Assembly (NCBI RefSeq): GCF_025398255.1
Contig: NZ_JAODNW010000008.1
Location: 1-64,000 of the forward strand
Reading direction: 5' to 3'
Length of the DNA stretch: 64,000 bases
From: Chelativorans intermedius
GTDB lineage: Bacteria; Pseudomonadota; Alphaproteobacteria; Rhizobiales; Rhizobiaceae
In this document: positions 5,555-57,153 of the stretch, one piece after another
How positions within the stretch are numbered: position 1 is the first letter of the stretch
Layout of the letters: each line of letters begins with the position of its first letter
Notes under the pieces: generated by a model
Told to the model about the DNA's origin: nothing
The model's input: the letters and a program-made list of their open reading frames with translations, nothing else
Database searches by the model: none
Translations under genes and position numbers: made by a program

Positions 5555-6187
5555 ATGTCGAATCCCGTCGAGACCGCGATGAACCTTGTGCCGATGGTCG
5601 TCGAACAGACGAACCGCGGCGAACGCGCCTACGACATCTTCTCGCGCCTCCTGAAGGAGCGCATCATCTTCATCACCGGGCCGATCGAGGACGGGATGGC
5701 TTCGCTCGTCTGCGCGCAGCTTCTCTTCCTCGAAGCGGAGAACCCGAAGAAGGAGATTGCGCTCTACATCAACTCGCCGGGTGGCATCGTCACCAGCGGC
5801 ATGGCGATCTACGACACCATGCAGTTCATCCAGCCGCCGGTGTCCACCCTGTGCATCGGCCAGGCGGCCTCTATGGGCTCGCTGCTTCTGACGGCGGGCG
5901 CGGAGGGCATGCGTTTTGCCACGCCGAATGCGCGCATCATGGTTCACCAGCCCTCCGGCGGCTTTCAGGGCCAGGCGTCCGACATCGAGCGCCACGCCCA
6001 GGATATCATCAAGCTGAAGCGGCGCCTGAACGAGATCTATGTCAAGCACACCGGCCGTGATTACGAGACCATCGAGAAGACGCTCGACCGCGACCACTTC
6101 ATGAATGCCGAGGAGGCGAAGGAGTTCGGGCTCATCGACAGGGTCATCTCCAGCCGCGAGCTCGTCGAGGGGCCGGGGGCCTCGTGA
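5555..6187 (+). CDS. clpP: ATP-dependent Clp protease proteolytic subunit
   Basis: Serine protease forming the tetradecameric chamber that degrades substrates fed by ClpX or ClpA. The product is 210 aa. The catalytic triad is visible as Ser106 ([11 protein letters not shown]), His131 (MVHQPSGG) and Asp180 (LDRDHFM), all at the spacing seen in E. coli ClpP. A short N-terminal propeptide region precedes the core. ATG 5555 has AAGAAGG at a suitable distance. clpX follows after 291 bp with its own upstream region. Confidence 0.97.
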
Positions 6188-6478
6188 GGTGTCGGGCGCG
6201 GCGCGCCGGCTGCGAGTCGAAAATTAGCGGCATGCTGCGGCATTTCCGTCACATTTTCCTGTTCCCTAAGCGCTGGCAACCGCTTACGTTAAGCCTATGT
6301 TGAAGTTCGATCCCCTAGTTTTTGCTGGGGAATCTTGCCGTGCTTTCCGATTCGTGTTTCGCTCGGAAAGTGACAGGGGAGAAGATGCGGGGCAGGCTCG
6401 GGCTTTCCTTCCGGCATTGATCCCCTGCGGCAGACGGCCTCGCGAAGCGGCGCCGGTGGTACTGAAAGGACATGTGAG
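6188..6478 (+). other. clpP-clpX intergenic region
   Basis: 291 bp between two plus-strand genes. It contains an imperfect hairpin around 6310-6332 (CCCC-TAG then CTGGGG with a one-base bulge) without a T tract. It also contains a 61-codon frame starting at 6297 whose TGA overlaps the clpX ATG as ATGA. That frame has only a weak ribosome binding site and no recognisable motif, so I do not call it a gene. The clpX promoter probably lies here, but no convincing -35/-10 pair is visible. Confidence 0.4.
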
Positions 6479-7753
6479 ATGAGCAAGATCGGCAACAGCG
6501 GCGGCGATTCCAAGAACACGCTGTACTGCTCCTTCTGCGGCAAGAGCCAGCACGAGGTGCGCAAGCTGATCGCCGGACCGACCGTCTTCATCTGCGATGA
6601 ATGTGTCGAGCTGTGCATGGACATCATCCGCGAGGAAAACAAGTCCTCGATGGTGAAGTCGCGCGAGGGCGTGCCGACCCCGCAGGACATCCTCAAGGTC
6701 CTTGACGATTATGTGATCGGCCAGGCCCATGCCAAGCGCGTGCTGTCGGTGGCCGTCCACAACCACTACAAGCGCCTGGCCCATGCCGGCAAGAACCAGG
6801 ATGTGGAACTGGCCAAGTCGAACATCCTGCTGATCGGCCCGACCGGCTGCGGCAAGACGCTGCTTGCCCAGACGCTGGCGCGCATCATCGACGTGCCCTT
6901 CACCATGGCCGATGCGACGACGCTCACCGAGGCCGGCTATGTGGGCGAGGACGTTGAGAACATCATCCTGAAGCTGCTGCAGGCGGCCGACTACAATGTC
7001 GAACGCGCCCAGCGCGGCATCGTCTACATCGACGAGATCGACAAGATCTCGCGCAAGTCGGACAACCCCTCGATCACCCGCGACGTCTCGGGCGAGGGCG
7101 TGCAGCAGGCGCTTCTGAAGATCATGGAGGGAACGGTCGCCTCCGTGCCGCCGCAGGGCGGCAGGAAGCACCCCCAGCAGGAGTTCCTGCAGGTCGATAC
7201 CTCCTCGATCCTGTTCATCTGCGGCGGCGCCTTCGCAGGGCTGGAGAGGATCATCTCCGACCGCGGGCGCAAGACCTCCATCGGCTTTTCCGCCAATGTT
7301 GCCTCGCCGGAGGATCGCCGTGCCGGCGAGCTTCTGCGCCAGGTGGAACCGGAGGACCTGTTGAAGTTCGGGCTCATTCCCGAGTTCGTGGGACGCCTGC
7401 CGGTGCTCGCCACGCTGGAGGACCTGGACGAGGAGGCGCTGGTGCGCATCCTCAGCGAGCCGAAGAACGCGCTCGTCAAGCAGTACAAGCGCCTGTTCGA
7501 GATGGAGAATGTGGAGCTCACCTTCCACGAGAACGCGCTGACGGCGATCGCCCGCAAGGCCATCGAGCGCAAGACGGGCGCGCGCGGCCTGCGCTCCATC
7601 ATGGAGGCGATCCTGCTCGACACCATGTTCGAGCTGCCGGCGCTGGAAGGCGTTCAGGAGGTCGTGATCTCGGACGAGGTGGTGGCCGGCAATGCCCGCC
7701 CCCTCTACATCTATGCCGAGCGCGAGAAGGAGAAGGGCAGCGTCAGCGCGTGA
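6479..7753 (+). CDS. clpX: Clp protease ATP-binding subunit ClpX
   Basis: Hexameric AAA+ unfoldase that recognises tagged substrates and threads them into ClpP. In order: an N-terminal four-cysteine zinc domain (CSFCGK and CDECVELC, within residues 15-45), the AAA+ module with Walker A GPTGCGKT near residue 120 and Walker [10 protein letters not shown] near 185, and the C-terminal small domain including the arginine-rich [10 protein letters not shown]. The 424-aa length is normal. Start ATG 6479 is the usual [18 protein letters not shown]-terminus. clpP, clpX and lon are consecutive, as in most alphaproteobacteria. Confidence 0.97.
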
Positions 7754-8007: not shown

Positions 8008-10422
8008 ATGACAAACACCCCCAAGACTTCTGGTGAAATGCTGTTCCCGGTGCTGCCCCTGCGCGACATCGTGGTGTTTCCGCACATGATCGTGCCGCTT
8101 TTCGTGGGGCGCGAGAAGTCGATCAAGGCGCTGGAGGAGGTGATGGGTGCCGAGAAGCAGGTGCTTCTGGCCACCCAGATGAACGCCGCCGACGACGACC
8201 CGGAGCCCAGCGGCATCTACGATGTCGGCACGCTCGCCAATGTGCTGCAGCTTCTCAAGCTGCCCGACGGAACGGTCAAGGTGCTGGTGGAGGGGGCGGC
8301 GCGCGCCCGCATCACCGGGTTCACCGGGCGCGAGGACTTCCACGAGGCGCGCGCGGAGATTCTCGAAGCGCCGCAGGAGGACGAGGTTGAGATCGAGGCG
8401 CTGGCCCGTTCGGTGCTCGCCGACTTCGAGAACTATGTGAAGCTCAACAAGAAGATCTCGCCCGAGGTGGTGGGCGCGGCCAGCCAGATCGAGGACTATG
8501 CCAAGCTCGCCGATACGGTCGCCTCGCACCTGGCCATCAAGATTCCCGAGAAGCAGGAGATGCTGGCCACCCTGTCGGTGCGCGAGCGCCTGGAAAAGGC
8601 CATGGGCTTCATGGAGGCCGAGATCTCGGTTCTGCAGGTGGAAAAGCGCATCCGCTCGCGCGTCAAGCGCCAGATGGAGAAGACGCAGCGCGAGTACTAC
8701 CTCAACGAGCAGATGAAGGCGATCCAGAAGGAGCTCGGCGAGGGCGAGGACGGCCGCAACGAGGTGGCCGAGCTCGAGGAGCGTATCAAGAAGACGCGGC
8801 TTTCCAAGGAAGCGCGCGAGAAGGCTCAGGCCGAACTCAAGAAGCTGCAGACCATGTCGCCCATGTCGGCGGAAGCCACGGTCGTGCGCAACTATCTCGA
8901 CTGGCTGCTCTCCATCCCGTGGAAGAAGAATTCGAAGGTGCGTCACGACCTGGGCTTCGCCGAGGAAGTGCTGGACGCCGACCACTACGGCCTGGAGAAG
9001 GTCAAGGAGCGCATCGTCGAGTATCTTGCCGTCCAGTCGCGGCAGAAGAAGCTGAAGGGTCCCATCCTGTGCCTCGTCGGCCCTCCGGGCGTCGGCAAGA
9101 CCTCGCTCGGCAAGTCGATCGCCCGTGCCACGGGCCGCGAGTTCGTGCGTATGGCGCTGGGTGGCGTGCGCGACGAGGCCGAGATTCGCGGCCATCGGCG
9201 CACCTATATCGGCTCCATGCCCGGCAAGGTGATCCAGTCGATGCGGAAGGCCGGCAAGTCGAACCCGCTGTTCCTGCTCGATGAGATCGACAAGATGGGC
9301 ATGGATTTCCGCGGCGATCCCTCCTCGGCGCTTCTGGAGGTGCTGGACCCCGAGCAGAACGCCACCTTCATGGACCACTATCTGGAGGTGGAATACGACC
9401 TGTCGAGCGTCATGTTCGTGACGACGGCCAACACCCTCAACATCCCGCCGGCGCTGATGGACCGCATGGAGATCATCCGCATCGCCGGCTACACCGAGGA
9501 CGAGAAGATCGAGATCGCCAAGCGGCATCTGTTGCCCAAGGCGGTGCGCGAGCATGCGCTCCAGCCCAAGGAATTCTCGGTCACCGACGGAGCGCTGCAG
9601 ACCATCATCCGCACCTACACCCGTGAGGCGGGCGTGCGCAATCTGGAGCGCGAGCTGATGAAGCTGGCGCGCAAGGCGGTCACCGAGATCCTGAAGTCGG
9701 GCAAGAAGTCGGTGAAGGTGACGGAGAAGAACCTGGCCGACTATCTGGGCGTGCCGCGCTTCCGTTTCGGCCAGGCCGAGGGCGAGGACCAGGTGGGCGT
9801 CGTCACCGGCCTTGCCTGGACCGAGGTGGGCGGCGAGCTGCTGACCATCGAGGGTGTCATGATGCCCGGCAAGGGCAAGATGACGGTGACCGGCAACCTG
9901 CGCGACGTCATGAAGGAGTCGATCTCCGCAGCCGCCTCCTACGTGCGCAGCCGGGCCGTTGACTTCGGCATCGAACCGCCGATCTTCGACAAGAAGGACA
10001 TCCACGTGCACGTGCCGGAAGGCGCCACGCCCAAGGATGGCCCCTCGGCCGGCATCGCCATGGTGACGGCGATCGTTTCCGTGATGACCGGCATTCCGGT
10101 GCGCAAGGACATCGCCATGACGGGCGAGATCACGCTGCGCGGCCGGGTGCTGCCCATCGGCGGGCTGAAGGAGAAGCTGCTGGCGGCCCTTCGCGGCGGC
10201 ATCAAGAAGGTGCTCATCCCGGAGGAGAACGCCAAGGACCTGGCCGAGATCCCGGAAAACGTGAAGAGCGGTCTGGAGATCGTGCCGGTCAGCCGTGTCG
10301 GCGAGGTGCTGGAGCACGCGCTCACCCGCAAGCCGGAGCCCATCGAATGGGTGGAGCCGGTGGCCGCCGCCCAGAAGGTGGAGGTTCCCGGCGAGACGGG
10401 AAGCCAGACCGTCGCCCATTGA
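8008..10422 (+). CDS. lon: ATP-dependent protease La
   Basis: Cytosolic AAA+ serine protease that degrades misfolded proteins and specific regulators. The 804-aa product has the LON substrate-binding N-terminal domain ([15 protein letters not shown] from residue 12), a coiled-coil region with basic segments (about 190-290), Walker [14 protein letters not shown] near 355, Walker [11 protein letters not shown] near 420, and the proteolytic domain with the Ser of PKDGPSAG near 680 and its partner Lys after [14 protein letters not shown]. The ATG at 8008 follows AAAAAGG. A GC-rich hairpin terminator lies at 10517-10546. Confidence 0.97.
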
Positions 10423-10516
10423 GGCGGCGCGCCGAACGGCGCGAACCGGGTTTTCGGCCCCGCTGCCGCGCCGGCAATGCAGCGCCGGCAGCGCGGGCGG
10501 AAACGCCACACACATC

Positions 10517-10546
10517 AGGGGCCGGCCTCTCGGGGCCGGCCCTTTG
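10517..10546 (+). terminator. Terminator downstream of lon
   Basis: AGGG(G)CCGGCC pairs with GGCCGGCCCT over ten base pairs with one bulged G and a short loop, followed by CCTTTGTC. It lies about 95 bp past the lon stop and separates lon from the HU gene. The T tract is short, so efficiency is uncertain. Confidence 0.6.
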
Positions 10547-10686
10547 TCCAGAAAAGCGCGGAAAACCGGGGATTTTTCGCTTCTCCGGCTTATTTCCCGC
10601 TTGGTCGGCCCCCCACTTCTTCATAAACTGCCAACCCAGCCGGTTGAGTCGCTCTCCGGCCATAATAGAAAAGGGGTTTGTTGTTT

Positions 10687-10959
10687 ATGAACAAGAACGA
10701 ACTGGTATCCGCCGTTGCCGAGCAGGCCGGTCTTTCCAAGGGCGACGCCCAGTCGGCCGTCGACGCGGTTTTCTCCGTTATCACGGACGAGCTGAAGAAA
10801 GGCGGGGACGTTCGGCTTGTCGGTTTTGGCAATTTCAGCGTTTCGCGGCGCGAGGCCTCCACGGGCCGCAACCCGCAGACCGGCGCTCCGGTGGAGATCC
10901 CGGCGCGCAACGTGCCGAAATTCTCGGCAGGCAAGGGCCTGAAGGACGCGATCAACTGA
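10687..10959 (+). CDS. hupB: DNA-binding protein HU
   Basis: Small dimeric nucleoid protein that bends and compacts DNA. The 90-aa product starts MNKNELVSAVAEQAG and has the conserved GFGNFSVSRREASTGRNPQTG beta-arm base followed by IPARNVPKFSAGKGLKDA. The ATG at 10687 gives exactly the family length and has AAAAGGGG upstream; two in-frame TTG codons just before it would add three residues. Own transcription unit between terminators at 10517-10546 and 10996-11026. Confidence 0.96.
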   Translation: MNKNELVSAVAEQAGLSKGDAQSAVDAVFSVITDELKKGGDVRLVGFGNFSVSRREASTGRNPQTGAPVEIPARNVPKFSAGKGLKDAIN

Positions 10960-10995
10960 TCGACCGCGGTCAACCGCGGCCCCACACCGTCGGAC

Positions 10996-11026
10996 AAAGG
11001 CCGGGCCTGCCCCGGCCTTTTCCTTT
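10996..11026 (+). terminator. Terminator of the HU gene
   Basis: A perfect ten-bp stem, AAAGGCCGGG (10996-11005) with CCCGGCCTTT (11011-11020), encloses a CCTGC loop and runs into TTTTCCTTT. It sits 37 bp after the hupB stop. Confidence 0.85.
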
Positions 11027-11154
11027 GGCGCCAACGCGCATCAGCCTCCCCAAACCTCCCAAATGGGAGTTGTGCCCGTACCCCACCCATTGATCAATAG
11101 CCCGAACGAAGCGGTCTTCGAAGGGAAGGCCGCGCAGGACAGGGGGAAGGCAAC

Positions 11155-12111
11155 ATGCGATCTCACAGGGTGTTTTTGACGGGCAGCGTGGCAATTGCGG
11201 CTCTCGGACTGGCCGGATGCGGCGGCAGCGGCTCGACGAGCGCCATCGTCGACGCGCTCTTTGCGGAGGATGTCGGTACGGCAGCCGAAGCGCTCGACGA
11301 CGGAAAGACGCTGAAAGCCTATGATGGCAAGATGTCCTCGACGCTCCACCACGAGGACGTGCGCAGACACGATTCGGCAAAAGTCTCCATAAAGAAGAAC
11401 GATGCCGGTGGCATCGACGTCACCGTAAACGGCAAAACGGAAAGCTATTCGTCAACCCACGTCTCGGATGACGGGTATGGGTTCGAAAGCGATGATGGTC
11501 ACCGCAATATCTACACCTGGAGTGCGCCCAGTGCGCAGGATGCCGTCAACGGCACAGGTGGCTATCCCTATCATCAGATATGGGGATATCACTGGTGGGA
11601 CCCGGAAAGCGACGATCCCGGCATGTTCGGTTTTGCCGTTGTGGGCACGGAGACAACGTCCGAGGTGGTGGCGGCCCGAACCGATAAGGCCACCTATTCG
11701 GGCACTGCCTTTATTCGCAGCTACGGTTCTGACGGGAGCGTCCATGATCGAACGGATATAAAGGGTGATCTGTCGTTGACCGCAGAGTTCGATGAAGGAA
11801 AGATTTCTGGCCTGGTGAACAATGTGGAAGGAAGAGAGCGCGTCAATGACGTGAATGGTCCTTGGACTGCGGTGACGGGCGGCGAAATTGCGCTGCAGGA
11901 AGCCGATATTTCCGGCCACGGCTACGAAGGCAAGATCGCCCCCAATGACACGTTCAACACGGCATTGGGTGTGACGGAAATCGACGGAACGTACCGGGGC
12001 AAGTTCTTCGGTCCTGATGCCGAGGAGACGGCCGGCGTCATCTCGGCCTCCGGTGTCGCGGATGGCGAGGACTTTATTGCGACAGGCTCCTTCAGCGCAG
12101 ACGAGGACTGA
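11155..12111 (+). CDS. TbpB-like surface lipoprotein, probable Slam substrate
   Basis: 318-aa lipoprotein of unknown ligand. The signal peptide ends in the lipobox GLAGC with Cys22, followed by a Gly/Ser anchor. The mature part is rich in short beta strands, Asp and Gly. Residues 280-297 carry the signature FFGPDAEETAGVIS, which matches the end-of-barrel motif (G-x-F-[FY]-G-P-x-A-x-E) of transferrin-binding protein B, factor H-binding and haemoglobin-binding lipoproteins exported by Slam. No TbpA-like receptor is encoded nearby. The next gene encodes a Slam-type protein, which strongly supports surface exposure. The leader contains the palindrome CTCCCAAATGGGAG (about 11057-11070). Confidence 0.8.
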   Translation: MRSHRVFLTGSVAIAALGLAGCGGSGSTSAIVDALFAEDVGTAAEALDDGKTLKAYDGKMSSTLHHEDVRRHDSAKVSIKKNDAGGIDVTVNGKTESYSSTHVSDDGYGFESDDGHRNIYTWSAPSAQDAVNGTGGYPYHQIWGYHWWDPESDDPGMFGFAVVGTETTSEVVAARTDKATYSGTAFIRSYGSDGSVHDRTDIKGDLSLTAEFDEGKISGLVNNVEGRERVNDVNGPWTAVTGGEIALQEADISGHGYEGKIAPNDTFNTALGVTEIDGTYRGKFFGPDAEETAGVISASGVADGEDFIATGSFSADED

Positions 12112-40439: not shown

Positions 40440-41768
40440 ATGCGACTGTCGCGCTACTTTTTGCCCATTCTCAAGGAGAATCCCCGCGAGGCGGAGATCG
40501 TCTCGCACCGTCTGATGCTGCGTGCCGGCATGATCCGCCAGCAGGCGGCCGGCAGTTTTTCTTGGCTGCCGCTCGGCAAGCGCGTGCTCGACAAGGTCTG
40601 CCGGATCATCCGCGAGGAGCAGAACCGCGCCGGCGGGCAGGAGATCCTCATGCCCACCATCCAGTCGGCCGATCTGTGGATCGAGAGCGGGCGCTACAAT
40701 GATTACGGCAAGGAGATGCTGCGCATCCGCGACCGGCAGGACCGCGCGATGCTCTACGGCCCCACCAATGAGGAGATGGTCACCGACATCTTCCGTGCCT
40801 ATGTGAAGTCCTATAAGGATCTGCCGCTCAACCTCTACCACATCCAGTGGAAGTTCCGCGATGAGGTGCGTCCGCGTTTCGGCGTCATGCGCTCGCGCGA
40901 GTTCCTGATGAAGGACGCCTACAGCTTCGACCTGGATTTCGAAGGCGCCAGAGCGGCTTACAACCGAATGTTCGTCGCCTATCTGAGGACCTTCGAGCGC
41001 ATGGGGCTGAAGGCCATCCCGATGCGCGCGGAGACGGGTCCCATCGGCGGCGACCTGTCCCACGAGTTCATCATCCTGGCATCGACGGGCGAGAGCGAGG
41101 TGTTCTGCCACAGCGATTTCCTCGACCTGCCGGTGCCCGGGCCCGATGTGAATTTCGAGGACGATGCCGAGATCGCCGGCATCGTGGAGCGGTGGACCGC
41201 GCCCTATGCGGCGACCGACGAGATGCACGACGAGGCGGCCTGGGCAGACGTGCCGGAGGGCAAGCGCCTTTCTGCACGCGGCATCGAGGTCGGCCATATT
41301 TTCCATTTCGGCACGAAATATTCCAAGCCCATGAAGGCAACCGTAACCGGCCCCGACGGGCAGGAGCATTTTGTCTCCATGGGGTCGTACGGCATCGGTC
41401 CGAGCCGCCTTGCCGCCGCCATCATCGAGGCGAGCCACGACGAGGCGGGCATCATCTGGCCGCAGAGCGTGGCCCCCTTCGACATCGCGCTCATCAACAT
41501 GAAGGCGGGCGACAGCGAATGCGATCGCATCTGCGAGGAGCTGTATGCCGGGCTCACGGCGGCCGGCTGCGAGGTGCTGTATGACGACACGGAGGGCCGC
41601 GCCGGCGCCAAGTTCGCCACCGCGGACCTCATCGGCCTGCCCTGGCAGGTCATCGTCGGGCCGCGCGGCGTGGCCGCGGGCGAGGTGGAGGTGAAGAACC
41701 GCGCCACCGGCGCGCGCGAGACCATGCCGGTGGGAGCGGTGGTGGGCAGATTCGGCGCGCGCCCATGA
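40440..41768 (+). CDS. proS: Prolyl-tRNA synthetase (short alphaproteobacterial type)
   Basis: Class II aminoacyl-tRNA synthetase, 442 aa. Motif 2 is in [27 protein letters not shown] (about 138-164), motif 3 in [14 protein letters not shown] near 315, and the anticodon-binding domain follows. The insertion (editing) domain of E. coli-type ProRS is absent between motifs 2 and 3, as usual for this clade, so editing of Ala-tRNA(Pro) must be in trans. The ATG has only a weak ribosome binding site. It overlaps lolC by ATGA. Confidence 0.96.
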
Positions 41769-43048
41769 GCGAGTCGCGCGCAGCCGGTGCCGGAGCGGGT
41801 CCCTTTTCCCGTTTCGAGCGCATGGTGGCCTGGCGCTATCTGCGTTCCCGGCGCAAGGAGGCTGTCGTCTCGGTCATCGCCTCCATCTCCTTCATCGGCA
41901 TCATGCTGGGCGTGGCCACGCTGATCGTCGTCATGGCGGTCATGAACGGTTTCCGCAGCGAGCTTCTGACGCGCCTTCTGGGCGTCAACGGCCATCTGAC
42001 CGTACAGCCGGTCGACATGCCGCTTGAGGACTATGCCGCCGTCGCCCGGCGCATTGCAGGGGTCGAGGGCGTGCGCCTCGCCATGCCCATGGTGCAGGGC
42101 CAGGTGCTGGCCTCCGGGCGCAGCGGTGCCGGCACCGGCGCGCTTATCCGCGGCGTGCGCGCCGAGGATCTGACGGAGCTCGACCTCGTATCGCAGAACA
42201 TCCGCCACGGCTCGCTCATCGACTTCGCCGCCGGCCAGGGGGTGGCCATCGGTTCGCGGCTGGCCAATGCGCTGGGCATCGCACTCGGCGATCCGATCAC
42301 GCTCACCTCGCCGGAAGGCGATGTCACCCCCTTCGGCACCACGCCGCGCGTGAAGGCCTATCCCGTCACCGCCATCTTCGAGATCGGCATGTCGGAGTTC
42401 GATGCCTCCATCATCTACATGCCGCTGGAGGAGGCACAGCTTTATCTCAATGTCGAGGGCCTTGCCCAGCTCATCGAGGTCTTCATCGCCGATCCCGACG
42501 CTGTGGACGCGCTGCGCCCGCTCGTGGAGGCTGCAGCGCAGCGCCCGGTCGCCGTCAGCGACTGGCGCCAGCGCAACCGCACCTTCTTCTCCGCCCTGCA
42601 GGTGGAGCGCAACGTCATGTTCATGATTCTGACCATGATCGTTCTGGTGGCCGCGCTCAACATCATCTCCGGCATGATCATGCTGGTGAAGGACAAGGGC
42701 CGCGATATCGCCATCCTGCGCACCATGGGCGCGACCAGCGGCGCCGTCATGCGCATCTTCATGATGACGGGGGCGGCCATCGGGGTCACCGGCACCTTCG
42801 CCGGGCTGATTCTGGGCACGGTGCTGTGCCTCAATGTCGAGTCGATCCGCCAGTTCTTCTCCTGGCTCTCGGGCACCACCATCTTCGACCCGGAAGTCTA
42901 TTTCCTGAGCCAGCTTCCTGCCGAGATGGAGACGGGCGAGACCCTCTCGGTGGTGCTGATGGCGCTTGTCCTGTCCTTCCTCGCCACCCTTCTTCCCGCC
43001 TGGCGCGCCTCGCGCCTCGATCCCGTCGAAGCCTTGAGATACGAATAG
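41765..43048 (+). CDS. lolC: Lipoprotein-releasing ABC transporter permease
   Basis: Inner-membrane permease of the LolCDE-type complex that extracts mature lipoproteins for transfer to LolA. 427 aa. N-terminal [47 protein letters not shown] is the first transmembrane region; a large periplasmic domain follows, then three helices from about 280 on ([25 protein letters not shown]). LolC and LolE are not separable here; a single permease gene suggests a homodimer. Coupled to proS (ATGA) and to lolD (0 bp). Confidence 0.92.
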
Positions 43049-43735
43049 ATGGCCGACAGCGTTCTGGAACTGAAAGCGGTCGACCGCCGCTATGTGCAGG
43101 GGCCGAAGGAGCTCGTCATCCTGAACGGCGCCGATTTCGCGTTGCGTTCCGGCGAGATGGTGGCGCTGGTCGCCCCCTCCGGCGCCGGCAAGTCGACCCT
43201 CCTGCACATTGCCGGCCTGCTCGAATATCCCGATGGTGGCGATGTGGTGGTCAACGGCACCTCCTGCGCCGGCCTGCCCGACGAGCAGCGCACGGCCATC
43301 CGCCGCAGCGAGATCGGCTTCGTCTATCAGTTCCACCACCTGCTGCCGGAGTTCTCCGCGCTCGAGAACGTGATGATGCCGCAGCTCATCGCCGGCCTGC
43401 CGCCGGCCGAGGCGAAGGAGCGCGCCGCCCAGCTTCTCGCCTATATGAAGATCGGCCAGCGCGCCGCCCATCGTCCGGCGGAGCTTTCGGGCGGCGAGCA
43501 GCAGCGCGTGGCGATCGCCCGCGCCGTGGCCAACGCACCGCTCGTGCTTCTTGCCGACGAGCCGACGGGCAATCTCGACCCCAAAACGGCCGGCTACGTG
43601 TTCGAGGCGCTGGAGGCGCTGGTGCGCCAGTCGGGGCTTGCCGCCCTGATCGCCACCCACAACGAGGAGCTGGCCGCGCGCATGGACCGCCGTGTCACCC
43701 TGGCAGAGGGCAAGGTGGTGCCGCTGCCCGAATAG
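43049..43735 (+). CDS. lolD: Lipoprotein-releasing ABC transporter ATP-binding protein
   Basis: 228-aa ATPase of the Lol system. Walker [10 protein letters not shown] (about 45-53), signature [14 protein letters not shown] (about 147-160), Walker [17 protein letters not shown]. It starts immediately after the permease stop codon. The neighbourhood fits the two lipoproteins annotated elsewhere in this window only in a general sense. Confidence 0.95.
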
Positions 43736-43863
43736 GGCTGTCGGGCGAGAGGCCCCTCGCGCCGCCTCCGGGCCTGAGAAGAACCGCGCCAGGCGACGGA
43801 CGGCCCGGCCCGCCCATTTCCGCAATGCCCGAAATCCTGCGCCCGCCCGCATCACCCGGCCTT

Positions 43864-44214
43864 TCAGCAATGGGCCAGGATGTTGACGAGCTTGCCGAAG
43901 GGATCGCGCACGAAGAAGCGCCGCACGCCCCAAGGCTCCTCCGCCGGCCCGTATTCGAGCACGTATCCGGCGGCGCGCACGCGCGCCAGCGCAGTGTCCA
44001 GATCGTCCACCTCGACGGAAAGATCAGGCACCGGCGTGCCCGAGCCGCCCTCGACGGCGAAGCTGATCTGCGCGACTGCCTCTCCGCGCACGCCCCAGGT
44101 GGCGATCCAGCCATGGTCCATCAGCGGCTCCAGTCCCAGCACCTCTCCATAGAAGTGCAGCGCGGCCGTCGCGTCCTCGGTGGCCACATTGGGCACGATT
44201 CGCTTCACCCTCAT
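43864..44214 (-). CDS. VOC-family (glyoxalase-like) protein
   Basis: 116-aa single-domain protein. Starts MRVKRIVPNVATEDATAALHFYGEVLGLE, typical of small VOC proteins; the C-terminal WGVRRFFVRDPFGKLVNIL contains the conserved D-P-x-G-x-x-x turn. ATG 44214 has GAGGAGG upstream. The frame can be read to 44298 through the LexA-type box, but that extension is spurious. Ligand and reaction unknown. Confidence 0.85.
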   Translation of the reverse strand: MRVKRIVPNVATEDATAALHFYGEVLGLEPLMDHGWIATWGVRGEAVAQISFAVEGGSGTPVPDLSVEVDDLDTALARVRAAGYVLEYGPAEEPWGVRRFFVRDPFGKLVNILAHC

Positions 44215-44274
44215 GCCCGTTTCCTCCTCTTCATCCTCTGTTAACGCTGCGGATGCCCGCGGTCCGGCGCGCGC

Positions 44275-44303
44275 TTGACGGAAACAAAAATAGAACATAA
44301 AAT
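44275..44303 (+). promoter_or_regulatory. SOS-type promoter: LexA box inside a near-consensus promoter
   Basis: TTGACG (44275-44280), 17-nt spacer, TAAAAT (44298-44303). AAACAAAAATAGAAC (44282-44296) fills the spacer; its reverse complement GTTC-N7-GTTT matches the alphaproteobacterial LexA box GTTC-N7-GTTC with one change. The same 16 bases, including the next A, occur upstream of recA. LexA bound here would cover both promoter elements. Confidence 0.8.
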
Positions 44304-44346
44304 GATCATATCAAGATCAATTGGCAGTTATCCACAGGAGGATGCC

Positions 44347-44433
44347 ATGGCCGAGCTGCTTCAGGATGTCGTTTCTCTGGTTGCCGTCAGCTCTTTCATC
44401 GTCGTCGCCGCCACGTGGATCGGCGCGCTTTGA
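44347..44433 (+). CDS. SOS-controlled 28-aa membrane peptide (SidA-like candidate)
   Basis: A 28-codon gene with a strong Shine-Dalgarno (AGGAGG, six bases before ATG), starting MAELLQD and continuing with one hydrophobic helix of about 20 residues (VVSLVAVSSFIVVAATWIGA). It lies 44 bp downstream of a promoter whose spacer is a LexA-type box. Caulobacter SidA, an SOS-induced inhibitor of cell division acting on FtsW/FtsN, is a 29-aa inner-membrane peptide, so size, topology and regulation all match. Sequence homology to SidA is not claimed. Followed by a hairpin at 44442-44466. Confidence 0.75.
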   Translation: MAELLQDVVSLVAVSSFIVVAATWIGAL

Positions 44434-44434
44434 C

Positions 44435-44466
44435 GAAAAAGGGCAGGGGCCGGCGTGGCCCCTGCC
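44435..44466 (-). terminator. Terminator of lipB-ggt
   Basis: GGCAGGGGCC (44442-44451) pairs with GGCCCCTGCC (44457-44466) around GGCGT. Read on the minus strand, the stem is followed by CTTTTTCG. It lies 34 bp past the ggt stop; on the plus strand the same hairpin could end the small SOS transcript, though without a T tract. Confidence 0.75.
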
Positions 44467-44499
44467 GCCTGTCGGTCGTTGCATGTGGCGCCCGGTGGC

Positions 44500-46260
44500 T
44501 CAGTCGCCCACGGCCACACCTTCGCGCCGCGGATCGGCGCCGCCTTCCAGCCCGCGGGGCGTGAAGGCGACGCCGTGCAGGCCGGAGGTCAGGTCGGTGA
44601 CGCGCACCGTGTAGCCCATGGCCTCCAGTTCGTCGGCCAGCTCCTCGGCCGGTGTGCCGGCCTCCAGGTCGTAGGTGCCGAAGCGGTTGGTCAGATGGGC
44701 GAGCGAGATCGCCTGCTGCATGTCCATCCGCCAGTCGATCAGCGCGATGATGGTGTTGGCCACATAGGGAATGATGTTCGAGCCGCCGGGCGAGCCGAGC
44801 GCGAAGGCGGGCCTTCCTTCTTCCAGAATGATGGTCGGCGCCATGGAGGAGCGCGGCCGCTTGCCCGCCTCCACCCGGTTGGCCACCGCCTGGCCGTCGC
44901 TTTCGGGCAGGAAGGAGAAGTCGGTGAGCTGGTTGTTGAGCAGGAAGCCCGCCGCCATCTGCCGGGAGCCGAAGCCGTTCTCGATGCTGGCGGTCATGGA
45001 GGCGATGTTGCCCTCCGCGTCGACAATCACGAAATGCGAGGTCGAGCGCCGTTCCGGCTCCAGGCCGGGAAGCCGCAGCTCCGCCTTGTCCCAGGGCGGC
45101 GTGCCGGCCGTCACCGCCTTCTGCTCAAGCGCGTCCGGCCGCCGCAAGAGCCGCGCCCGATCCGCCAGATAGGCCTGGTCGAGCAGCCCCTGGGGCATCG
45201 AGACGAAGTCGCTGTCGGCCATGTAGAGCCCGCGGTCGGCAAAGGCCAGCCGCGTGGCATCGCCGATGATGCGCCAGCTTTCGGGGTCGTCCGGCCCCAG
45301 CGTCGCCAGGTCGAAATGCGAGACCATGCCGAGGATCTGGCCCACCGTCAGCCCGCCGGAGGAGGGCGGCCCCATGCCGCAGACCTCATACCCGCGATAG
45401 GGCGCGCAGACGGCCGGCCGCTCCTTCACCTCGTAGGCGGCCAGGTCCTCGAGGCTCAACAGCCCCGGATTGGTGGGGTGGTCGCGCACCGCCGCGACGA
45501 TCTTTCCGGCGATCTCCCCGGTATAGAAGGCGTCGGCCCCGCCCTCGGCGATGGCCCGCAGCGTCGCGGCATAGTCCGGGTTGGCCAGCCGCGCCCCTTC
45601 GGCCAGCGGCTCGCCCGCCGCATCGTAGAAATAGGCGCGGGCCGCCGGCTGGGTGTCGAGCTTGCCACGGTCGTTGGCGATCAGCCGGTGCAGCCTCGGC
45701 GAGACGGCAAAGCCCTCCTCGGCGCGCGCGATGGCCGGTTGGAAGAGCTCGGCCCAGTCGAGCCGGCCATAGCGCGCATGCACCGTCTCCATCAGCCGCA
45801 CGACCCCCGGTGTGCCCACCGAGCGGCCGCCGATCACCGCGTCGAAGAAGGCCAGCGGTTCGCCCTTTTCGTCCAGAAAGAGCGCCGGTGTCGCTGCCGC
45901 CGGTGCGGTCTCGCGCCCGTCGAAGGTGGTGATCTCGCCGCTTTCGGCATCATACCAGACGAGGAAGCCGCCGCCGCCCAGGCCCGAGGATTGCGGCTCG
46001 ACCAGCCCGAGCACGGTCTGCACGGCCACCAGCGCGTCGGCCGCGCTGCCGCCGCGGCGCAGCACGTCGAGCCCGGCCTCGGCGGCCAGCGGGTTGGCTG
46101 CCGCCACCATCTGGCGGCTGGCCCGTGTTACCGTGCGTTCGCTGCTGCCGGTGGCCATCTCCGGGGCCACCGCATCCGCTGCCTGCTGGGCGGCGGCGGG
46201 CGCGGCGAGCGCCAGGGGCAGGCCGAGCGCCAGCGCCCATCTCCATCCTGTCATGCGCAT
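44500..46260 (-). CDS. ggt: Gamma-glutamyltransferase (periplasmic)
   Basis: N-terminal-nucleophile enzyme that hydrolyses glutathione and transfers gamma-glutamyl groups. 586 aa. Signal peptide about 1-23 (WALALGLPLALAAPAAAQQ). The autocatalytic Thr is in RRSTSHFVIVDAEGN (the nucleophile Thr opens the small subunit), and PSSGG-type GPPSSGGLTVGQ and SSMAPTI segments are visible. ATG 46260 is chosen since AAGGAG lies eight bases upstream; GTG 46269 is possible. Stop of lipB is one base away, so the two genes are one operon. Confidence 0.94.
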   Translation of the reverse strand: MRMTGWRWALALGLPLALAAPAAAQQAADAVAPEMATGSSERTVTRASRQMVAAANPLAAEAGLDVLRRGGSAADALVAVQTVLGLVEPQSSGLGGGGFLVWYDAESGEITTFDGRETAPAAATPALFLDEKGEPLAFFDAVIGGRSVGTPGVVRLMETVHARYGRLDWAELFQPAIARAEEGFAVSPRLHRLIANDRGKLDTQPAARAYFYDAAGEPLAEGARLANPDYAATLRAIAEGGADAFYTGEIAGKIVAAVRDHPTNPGLLSLEDLAAYEVKERPAVCAPYRGYEVCGMGPPSSGGLTVGQILGMVSHFDLATLGPDDPESWRIIGDATRLAFADRGLYMADSDFVSMPQGLLDQAYLADRARLLRRPDALEQKAVTAGTPPWDKAELRLPGLEPERRSTSHFVIVDAEGNIASMTASIENGFGSRQMAAGFLLNNQLTDFSFLPESDGQAVANRVEAGKRPRSSMAPTIILEEGRPAFALGSPGGSNIIPYVANTIIALIDWRMDMQQAISLAHLTNRFGTYDLEAGTPAEELADELEAMGYTVRVTDLTSGLHGVAFTPRGLEGGADPRREGVAVGD

Positions 46261-46261
46261 G

Positions 46262-47005
46262 TCATGCACTCCTTGCCAAGGCCCCGTCCCGCCCGGCCTC
46301 AGCCGGCCCGAAGATTTCCTCGAAGGCCAGCTTCAGCGCCACGTCGTAGTCGGCCATCGTCACCGGCAGGCCGAGATCCACCAGGCTCGTCACGCCATAG
46401 CCGGCAATGCCGCAGGGCACGATGCCGCCATAGTGCGAAAGCTCCGGTTCCACATTCACGGCGATGCCGTGAAAGCTCACCCAGCGGCGCAGACGCACGC
46501 CGATGGCAGCGATCTTGTCTTCCATCGGGCTGCCGTCGGGCAGCGGCGGCTTGTCGGGGCGCACCACCCACACGCCGACGCGGCCTTGCCGCCGCTCGCC
46601 CCTGACGTTGAAGCGGGCGAGGCTGGCAATCACCCATTCCTCGAGCGCGGAGACGAAGGCGCGCACATCCTCGCGCCGCCGCTTGAGGTCCAGCATCACA
46701 TAGGCGACGCGCTGTCCCGGCCCGTGATAGGTGTATTCGCCGCCGCGCCCGGTCTTGAAGACGGGAAACCGCCCGGCGTCCAGAAGGTCTTCCGCCCTGG
46801 CGCTCGTGCCGGCGGTGTAAAGCGGCGGATGCTCGACGAGCCACACCATCTCTCCCGCCGCGCCGTTGCGGATGGCCGCCGCCCGCGCCTCCATGAAGGC
46901 CACCGCCCGCTCATAGGGTACAAGCCCCGGTTCGACGCGCCATTCCACCGGCGCCCCTGTCTGGCGCGGCAGAAAGGTGGGGGCCGTCCGTGCCGTTTCG
47001 CTCAT
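46262..47005 (-). CDS. lipB: Octanoyl-[acyl-carrier-protein]--protein octanoyltransferase
   Basis: Transfers octanoate from ACP to lipoate-dependent proteins. 247 aa. The catalytic Lys is in [15 protein letters not shown] and the Cys nucleophile in [16 protein letters not shown]; the N-terminal [23 protein letters not shown] is the other family signature. ATG 47005 ([11 protein letters not shown]) has GGAG upstream. Upstream gene of ggt. Confidence 0.95.
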
Positions 47006-55930: not shown

Positions 55931-55945
55931 AAACAAAAATAGAAC
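55931..55945. promoter_or_regulatory. LexA-type box between psuK and recA
   Basis: AAACAAAAATAGAAC, identical (16 bp including the next A) to the box at 44282-44296; reverse complement GTTC-N7-GTTT. It is 125 bp upstream of recA and 55 bp upstream of psuK, so either or both could be controlled. Confidence 0.65.
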
Positions 55946-55984
55946 AAAATTCAATTTCCATTGAAAATCAATGGCATATTGCTA

Positions 55985-56013
55985 TTGCCAAGACAGAACA
56001 AAAGAGGTACATA
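55985..56013 (+). promoter_or_regulatory. Candidate recA promoter with a second LexA-like box
   Basis: TTGCCA (55985-55990), 17-nt spacer, TACATA (56008-56013). In the spacer, GAAC-AAAAGAG-GTAC (55996-56010) resembles GAAC-N7-GAAC with one mismatch. This arrangement mirrors the promoter at 44275-44303, where a LexA box also fills the spacer. Confidence 0.5.
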
Positions 56014-56070: not shown

Positions 56071-57153
56071 ATGGCTCAGAACACATTGCGGCTTGTAGAG
56101 GATAGCTCTGTGGACAAATCCAAGGCATTGGACGCGGCGCTTTCGCAGATCGAGCGGGCCTTTGGCAAGGGCTCGATCATGCGGCTTGGCGCCAATGACA
56201 GCGTGGTCGAGATCGAGACCATCTCGACCGGCTCTCTCGGCCTCGACATCGCTCTGGGCGTGGGCGGGCTGCCGCGCGGGCGAATCATCGAGATCTACGG
56301 GCCGGAAAGCTCGGGCAAGACGACGCTTGCCCTGCACACCGTCGCCGAGGCGCAGAAGAAGGGCGGCATTTGCGGGTTCATCGACGCCGAGCATGCGCTC
56401 GATCCCGTCTATGCACGCAAGCTGGGTGTCGATCTTGAGAATCTGCTCATCTCCCAGCCCGACACGGGCGAGCAGGCGCTGGAGATCTGCGACACGCTGG
56501 TGCGTTCCGGCGCGCTCGACGTGATCGTCGTCGATTCGGTGGCCGCGCTCACCCCGCGCGCCGAGATCGAGGGCGAGATGGGCGATTCGCTTCCCGGCAT
56601 GCAGGCGCGCCTGATGAGCCAGGCGCTCAGGAAGCTCACCGCCTCCATCTCGCGCTCCAAAACGATGGTGATCTTCATCAACCAGATCCGCATGAAGATC
56701 GGCGTCATGTTCGGCTCGCCGGAGACGACGACGGGCGGCAACGCGCTCAAGTTCTATTCTTCCGTGCGCCTCGACATCCGCCGCATCGGCTCGGTCAAGG
56801 ACCGTGACGAGACCGTCGGCAACCAGACCCGCGTCAAGGTGGTGAAGAACAAGCTGGCCCCGCCCTTCAAGCAGGTCGAGTTCGACATCATGTATGGCGA
56901 GGGCGTGTCCAAGGTGGGCGAGCTGATCGACCTCGGCGCCAAGGCCGGCATCGTCGAGAAGTCCGGCGCCTGGTTCTCCTACAATTCCCAGCGTCTCGGC
57001 CAGGGGCGCGAGAATGCCAAGCAGTTCCTGCGCGACAACCCGGAGGTGGCGCGCGAGATCGAGCTGGCGCTGCGCCAGAATGCCGGCCTGATCGCCGAGC
57101 GCTTCCTGGACGATGCGCGCGACGACGAGCCCGGCGAGGCCGCCGAGGGCTGA
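56071..57153 (+). CDS. recA: Recombinase RecA
   Basis: Homologous-recombination ATPase that forms filaments on ssDNA and activates LexA self-cleavage. 360 aa. Walker [10 protein letters not shown] near residue 72, Walker [11 protein letters not shown] near 150, DNA-binding loop L2 region [27 protein letters not shown] 56071 gives the normal N-terminus ([20 protein letters not shown]); longer frames are unsupported. Two LexA-type boxes lie upstream, consistent with SOS induction. Confidence 0.97.

Follow-up and report, generated by a model that had tools for sequence, protein, structure and literature searches.

A gene of 28 codons in Chelativorans intermedius, a rhizobial bacterium, is very probably an orthologue of Caulobacter sidA; its product would be induced by the SOS response, reside in the inner membrane and inhibit the late divisome (FtsW, FtsI and FtsN). 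This reading is carried by a promoter enclosing a LexA box, a ribosome-binding site, a reading frame under selection, family-wide conservation and orthology by position and profile. SidA itself is described as a 29-amino-acid, SOS-induced protein of the inner membrane that acts on FtsW, FtsI and FtsN (PMC4211646). The likeness in size, topology and control that the preliminary description had drawn to it has held up (28 versus 29 amino acids, a hydrophobic helix, a LexA box) and is now joined by position and profile similarity.

The peptide gene, its promoter and its surroundings

The window, i.e. the whole stretch of 64,000 nucleotides that was analysed, contains the following features around the peptide gene and around recA:

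41765..43048, + strand: upstream neighbour encoding an FtsX-like permease, which we take to be lolC (Pfam PF12704, PF02687; synteny)
43049..43735, + strand: upstream neighbour encoding an ABC ATPase, which we take to be lolD (Pfam PF00005; synteny)
43864..44214, - strand: divergent gene of the VOC/glyoxalase superfamily, separating lolD from the peptide gene (Pfam PF00903)
44275..44303, + strand: sigma-70-type promoter TTGACG-N17-TAAAAT (read from sequence; TTGAC in 16/16 genus copies)
44282..44296, + strand: LexA box AAAC-N7-GAAC within the promoter spacer (pattern scan; 16-mer identical to the copy before recA)
44304..44318, + strand: leader block GATCATATCAAGATC that directly follows the -10 hexamer and is shared by most of the 16 aligned genus copies
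44328..44336, + strand: TTATCCACA, a 9-mer abutting the Shine-Dalgarno sequence and DnaA-box-like by sequence likeness to what we take to be the consensus
44336..44341, + strand: Shine-Dalgarno sequence AGGAGG (read from sequence)
44347..44433, + strand: 28-codon peptide gene with a single hydrophobic helix, the proposed SidA orthologue (ORF reading, tblastn, profile, genus alignment)
44442..44466, - strand: terminator-like hairpin of the convergent ggt (hairpin scan)
44500..46269, - strand: ggt, gamma-glutamyltranspeptidase, convergent neighbour (Pfam PF01019)
55931..55945, + strand: identical LexA box upstream of recA (pattern scan, 16-mer match)
56071..57153, + strand: recA (Pfam PF00154)

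The frame opens with an ATG at 44347, its stop ends at 44433, and the product, MAELLQDVVSLVAVSSFIVVAATWIGAL, is a peptide of 28 amino acids with a best 19-residue hydropathy of 2.20, a net charge of -2 and neither lysine nor arginine. Searches of Pfam and NCBIfam at E up to 10 return no model for it. From its surroundings the gene looks monocistronic, with the divergent VOC/glyoxalase gene on its left and ggt converging with a hairpin of its own on its right. The hairpin at 44442-44466 is terminator-like on the minus strand and would thus serve ggt rather than the peptide gene. Several congeners also have a divergent VOC/glyoxalase gene in this position.

Upstream of the frame, a near-consensus promoter has its spacer filled by a box that reads GTTC-N7-GTTT on the minus strand, just as previously claimed: TTGACG (44275-44280) and TAAAAT (44298-44303) are separated by 17 nt, match the consensus at 10 of 12 positions and enclose AAACAAAAATAGAAC (44282-44296) on the plus strand. 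A stretch of 1 kb has three promoter-like sites against 0.2 in shuffles, two of the three being weak sites on the minus strand (44334-44305 and 44314-44287). The preliminary description had also placed a perfect Shine-Dalgarno sequence 44 bp after the promoter; the AGGAGG exists, but the 44 bp are counted between the last base of the -10 hexamer and the ATG, and the Shine-Dalgarno sequence begins 33 nt after the hexamer. Within the leader, TTNTNCACA is present in 13 of the 16 genus copies but at only two of 110 places read across the family.

Within the window, the 16-mer AAACAAAAATAGAACA has two exact copies, at 44282-44297 and 55931-55946. With up to three mismatches there are still two matches against 0.04 expected, a number reached in none of 100 shuffles. 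The second copy ends 124 nt upstream of the recA ATG (56071), bearing out the earlier statement that the same 16 bp lie before recA. LexA is encoded in the same genome, with GTTCTGGTTTTGTTT and GTTCCATTTGTGTTC sites no more than about 70 bp away from the likely start of its gene. The AAAC-N7-GAAC site before lexA is oriented opposite to the gene, unlike the box of the peptide gene. Because the GTTT/AAAC half-site thus also occurs before lexA, it is a variant that boxes of this organism have in common.

Two side observations concern further sites of this kind. A degenerate LexA-like site, GAAC-N7-GTAC, lies at 55996-56010 of the window, past the recA box and ahead of the start of recA, and at three family loci (L206, L259, L282) the near-box of the peptide gene has this pattern too. 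Additionally, perfect LexA-like boxes, GTTCTCTTAATGTTC or GTTCTCTTAACGTTC, are located on contigs of this genome at C2:87, C11:61, C14:20, C19:19 and C22:48113; four of these contigs have the box within 90 bases of their start, so these boxes probably belong to a repeat at assembly breaks.

Conservation, control and position in the genus and family

Using the window peptide as a tblastn query (E up to 10) gave matches in 24 of 61 genomes, its own included: all 16 of the genus, eight of 21 others of the family and none of 24 others of the order. In an alignment of the 16 genus copies, one per genome, TTGAC, an [AG]AAC-N7-GAAC box and the frame are kept throughout; the -10 hexamer varies, with TATAAG being the commonest form and TAAAAT exact in the window copy only. 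Pairwise differences at codon positions 1, 2 and 3 come to 698, 323 and 1474 (counted without one duplicate, L008), and the pooled pN/pS is 0.29. By this comparison the frame is under purifying selection, with the amino acids selected and not merely the frame.

For the family at large, 21 of 32 places matched by tblastn were aligned (A1), and a profile of 30 copies chosen from both orders (A2) was used at a cut-off of E up to 0.02 on a set that places genomes of 1.1-2.0 Mb beside ordinary ones of 3-8 Mb. With this profile, the peptide was detected in 99 of the 121 genomes of the family, representing 89 of 109 genera, which leaves 22 genomes with no match at this cut-off. In a draw of 150 genomes from the order, 23 have a peptide match, 18 of them outside the family. 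We read 110 family places, including two (L299 and L304) that look like chance matches yet are kept in every count. At 88 of these places (87 genomes) the peptide gene is linked to lolC/lolD upstream, dnaE downstream or both—45 with both neighbours, 28 with lol only and 15 with dnaE only.

The predicted control is conserved along with position. Within 170 bp upstream of the 88 linked copies there are 80 strict GAAC-N7-GAAC boxes and six near ones, with two copies having none; the 22 unlinked places have ten strict boxes, one near box and 11 without. Over all 110 windows, this amounts to 90 strict boxes against 0.58 predicted from the same loci outside the tested upstream windows. An SD-like motif accompanies 92 of the 97 boxed family copies versus 781 of 6705 (12%) at any ATG. 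In 61 of the 97, TTGA precedes the box by 9 or 10 nt, and a crude test for a -10 element (TANNNT at the expected place after the box) finds it in ten; overlap of the box with the -35 element is therefore common and a near-consensus -10 atypical. Of the peptides themselves, 75 of the 88 linked ones are 28 amino acids long, with F17 in 75/75 and D7 in 74/75 of these, and the 19-residue Kyte-Doolittle mean is at least 1.6 in 86 of the 88.

Loss of the frame and box in close relatives, one of the outcomes that the preliminary description had named as speaking against it, did not turn up: both are kept in 16/16 genus genomes, and 86/88 linked family copies have a strict or near box. The same conservation, together with the family profile, refutes the notion of a chance ORF beside a chance box, to which we give next to no credence, even though the bare box pattern is common. 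GTTC-N7-GTTY occurs three times in the window against 1.6 expected, which is weak evidence by itself, and 167 times in the whole genome against 124 for the reversed control pattern.

The recurrent neighbours raise two other explanations. With dnaE downstream at 60 of the 110 family places, the frame might be a leader peptide (uORF) that tunes dnaE expression. Indeed, sORF25 of Sinorhizobium meliloti, which lies in the 5′-UTR of dnaE1, is translated according to ribosome profiling and is missing from two annotations, has been suggested as a possible uORF of dnaE1 (PMC10117765). Its slot is that of many family copies, that study reports no function for it, and from its position sORF25 is probably the same gene. 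In C. intermedius, by contrast to what a leader would require, the downstream neighbour is the convergent ggt, and the best DnaE match lies away from lolCD on another contig (C91:13170-16250, L031). With both strands scanned, neither a LexA box nor a peptide-family pattern occurs in the 1500 nt before this dnaE. That the peptide, box and promoter stay behind lolD while dnaE sits on C91 argues against a dnaE leader, as do selection on the amino acids rather than the frame alone and the 28 of 110 places that have lolC/lolD upstream and no dnaE in the 91 to 2000 downstream bases covered, 27 of which keep a strict box. We consequently rejected the dnaE leader, which we regard as very unlikely.

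Likewise, lolC/lolD upstream at 73 of the 110 places would suit a role as a small accessory subunit of LolCD, the lipoprotein-release transporter encoded next to the peptide gene. Against this, the peptide gene has its own LexA-boxed promoter, a strict box persists at ten of the 22 places with neither neighbour in the sequence covered, and the Caulobacter gene of the same slot is taken as a divisome inhibitor (see below), making a transporter subunit highly improbable.

The proposed link to Caulobacter SidA

Run against genomes of the whole class (E up to 0.1), the rhizobial profile matched 16 of 385 and gave one convincing far match, L036 in a genome of another order (G383), located directly before dnaE; the remaining weak matches were taken as chance. 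L036 led to an intermediate order, f36, and from there to the Caulobacteraceae. In f36, 35 of 40 genomes have a DnaE match, and of the 30 loci read, 23 have a LexA-boxed peptide with the same core, printed at 39-56 amino acids, which is absent from the other seven. A widened profile (E up to 0.02) matched seven of the 385 class genomes, namely the window's own and six others, all six with the peptide before dnaE and a LexA-like box.

Named Caulobacter genomes were reached using PopZ as bait (the best 80 of 397 confirmed stretches), and 16 were searched for DnaE, which has a match in 15 and none in a C. vibrioides MAG. In 14 of these 15 Caulobacter and Phenylobacterium genomes, a related peptide of about 29 amino acids is encoded before dnaE (exactly 29 in C. 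vibrioides OR37), the 29-residue starts having been picked to fit the reported length and in-frame starts giving 32-40 residues existing in several. C. zeae (L173) has no such peptide before dnaE. The Caulobacteraceae boxes fit [AG]AAC-N7-[AG]AAC at 11 of 15 loci, with GAAC-N7-GAAT seen by eye at three more, and the peptides carry N-terminal arginines. Within the sequence covered, lolD or lolC lies upstream at seven of the 15 Caulobacteraceae loci and 13 of the 30 f36 loci.

We take sidA to be CC1927. In the literature, sidA carries the tag CCNA_02004 (PMC11034885), dnaE is CC1926 and recN CC1983 (PMC1839093), and recN is also ccna_02062 (PMC12700426); the two recN tags differ by 79, an offset that puts CCNA_02004 and dnaE no more than a few genes apart. 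Ribosome profiling has led to a corrected start codon for sidA (PMC4117421). Because length, LexA box and locus-tag position all fit, we infer, and tightly so, that the Caulobacter ORF before dnaE is SidA.

Profile comparison connects the three groups in a graded manner. Alignments were made of 12 of the 13 distinct peptides from the 14 Caulobacteraceae genomes (A3) and of 11 of the 23 f36 peptides from the 30 loci (A4). With hhalign, the rhizobial and f36 profiles match at 96.6%, f36 and Caulobacteraceae at 80.5%, and rhizobial and Caulobacteraceae directly at 62.7%. When columns were shuffled separately inside the head block and the helix block, 0, 0 and 1 of 150 trials, respectively, came up to the real score; shuffling all columns together, which was applied to the direct pair alone, gave 0 such trials in 150. 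The direct match, with one in 150 block shuffles as good, is thus modest, and BLASTP of the window peptide against one Caulobacter peptide returned no alignment at E up to 100. The window peptide and Caulobacter SidA have in common the core pattern [DE]-x2-[AS]-[LF]-x-[SA]-[VI]-x2-F, and window gene and sidA of Caulobacter crescentus resemble each other in length (28 versus 29 residues), a single hydrophobic helix, the LexA box in the promoter and a slot after lolCD. They differ in that the window gene has no adjacent dnaE, its peptide lacks the N-terminal arginines and pairwise similarity falls below what BLASTP detects. Since slot, control and size are shared and the profile chain is graded, orthology is the simplest account.

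Several points count against the SidA reading: the 22 of 121 family genomes with no match, the two boxless copies among the 88 linked ones, the dnaE neighbour missing here, the BLASTP null, the modest direct profile match, the difference in charge and arginines, the chosen 29-residue starts and the atypical -10 element.

The main rival is a TisB/DinQ-type membrane toxin, SOS-induced and built of a single helix, that would depolarise the inner membrane and favour dormancy instead of acting on the divisome. TisB and DinQ of E. coli are LexA-controlled single-helix peptides of similar length. In size and predicted SOS control, the window peptide resembles both DinQ, a toxic single-transmembrane peptide (PMC3567139), and TisB (PMC8145889). 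Both are membrane toxins under antisense RNA control. At the window locus, positions 43500-44900 match no Rfam family on either strand at E up to 1, a search that covers known RNA families only, so that an antisense RNA of a new kind may exist there, where the two weak minus-strand promoter-like sites also lie; an antisense-controlled toxin was dropped as first choice because no known RNA family was found. The positional and profile links moreover tie the gene to the SidA locus, and the fixed D7 and F17 would suit a specific protein contact, which also argues against a toxin. We consider this explanation unlikely, albeit less so than the others.

Other division inhibitors are similar in role rather than in kind. 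SulA, YneA and SosA are SOS-induced division inhibitors as well, with folds and sizes other than those of the window peptide. YneA, for instance, interacts with FtsW (PMC13396833). DidA of Caulobacter is a small division inhibitor acting on FtsN, FtsW and FtsI, but it is SOS-independent, activated by DriD and encoded by a different gene (PMC4211646).

If the gene is indeed a sidA orthologue, LexA would occupy the promoter spacer and block RNA polymerase until DNA damage leads RecA to trigger LexA self-cleavage. The short mRNA would then be translated into the 28-residue peptide, which is predicted to insert into the inner membrane as one helix and may keep the late divisome, FtsW together with FtsI and FtsN, in an inactive state, such that the cell would elongate until repair is done. 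FtsW is encoded in this genome.

Phage-like copies and wider meaning

The family also contains eight box-less homologues starting with MRD (in genomes G012, G009, G023, G031, G525, G593, G553 and G534), lying in phage-like regions (L182-L185, L248, L258, L271 and L273):

L183 at 8912, L185 at 11438, L182 at 9340 and L184 at 8921: phage-like peptide copies without a LexA box
L183, in order: repressor 5897-6586, peptide 8912, exonuclease VIII 9180-10163, RecT 10169-11311

According to PHROGs, neighbours include repressors (L182, L183, L258), exonuclease VIII (L183, L185, L258, L273), RecT (L183, L185), other exonucleases (L182, L271) and integrase (L184 and, weakly, L183); around L248, there is just one unknown phage family. 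The L183 peptide is also encoded on an IMG/VR contig (L188), and the phage collection holds no match to the window peptide. A match of a phage-like copy to MT837819 (E 7) was judged meaningless, one of two pattern matches in viral contigs (L187) was dropped as it encodes an unrelated frame, and the doubtful homologues L029 (G005) and L030 (G001) were dropped as well.

In phage lambda, kil lies near repressor and recombination genes and its product targets FtsZ. The phage-like peptide copies are found near genes of the same sort, with no sequence relation to Kil claimed, and by this analogy one may guess that they block division.

A broader reading, which we advance tentatively and would stop just short of calling probable, is that SidA could be an ancient alphaproteobacterial SOS checkpoint peptide with its home in lolCD-sidA-dnaE and a wide spread among the rhizobial family, and that temperate phages may have captured it as LexA-free copies starting with MRD, which would serve as a Kil-like, phage-run division blocker. 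In the genus, a DnaA-box-like site gained beside the ribosome-binding region could tie this brake to replication initiation.

SidA is already known as a kind of protein; what is new, as far as we know, is that an orthologue is conserved across the rhizobial family and in further orders, that the gene recurs in a lolCD-sidA-dnaE slot and that phage-like copies exist. The literature searched, which leaves out most subscription journals, holds no report of any of the three, although the 2011 SidA paper may discuss orthologues, and no description of how rhizobia and their kin stop division after DNA damage. These bacteria grow from a pole, and we know of no SulA among them. A conserved tiny gene in a recurring slot is thus a direct candidate for a damage-induced division stop in rhizobia, and the slot provides a simple search handle for the gene in other alphaproteobacteria. 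The gene also suggests what the translated sORF before dnaE1 of S. meliloti is likely to be. Finally, the phage-like copies suggest that phages may exploit the same divisome control point.
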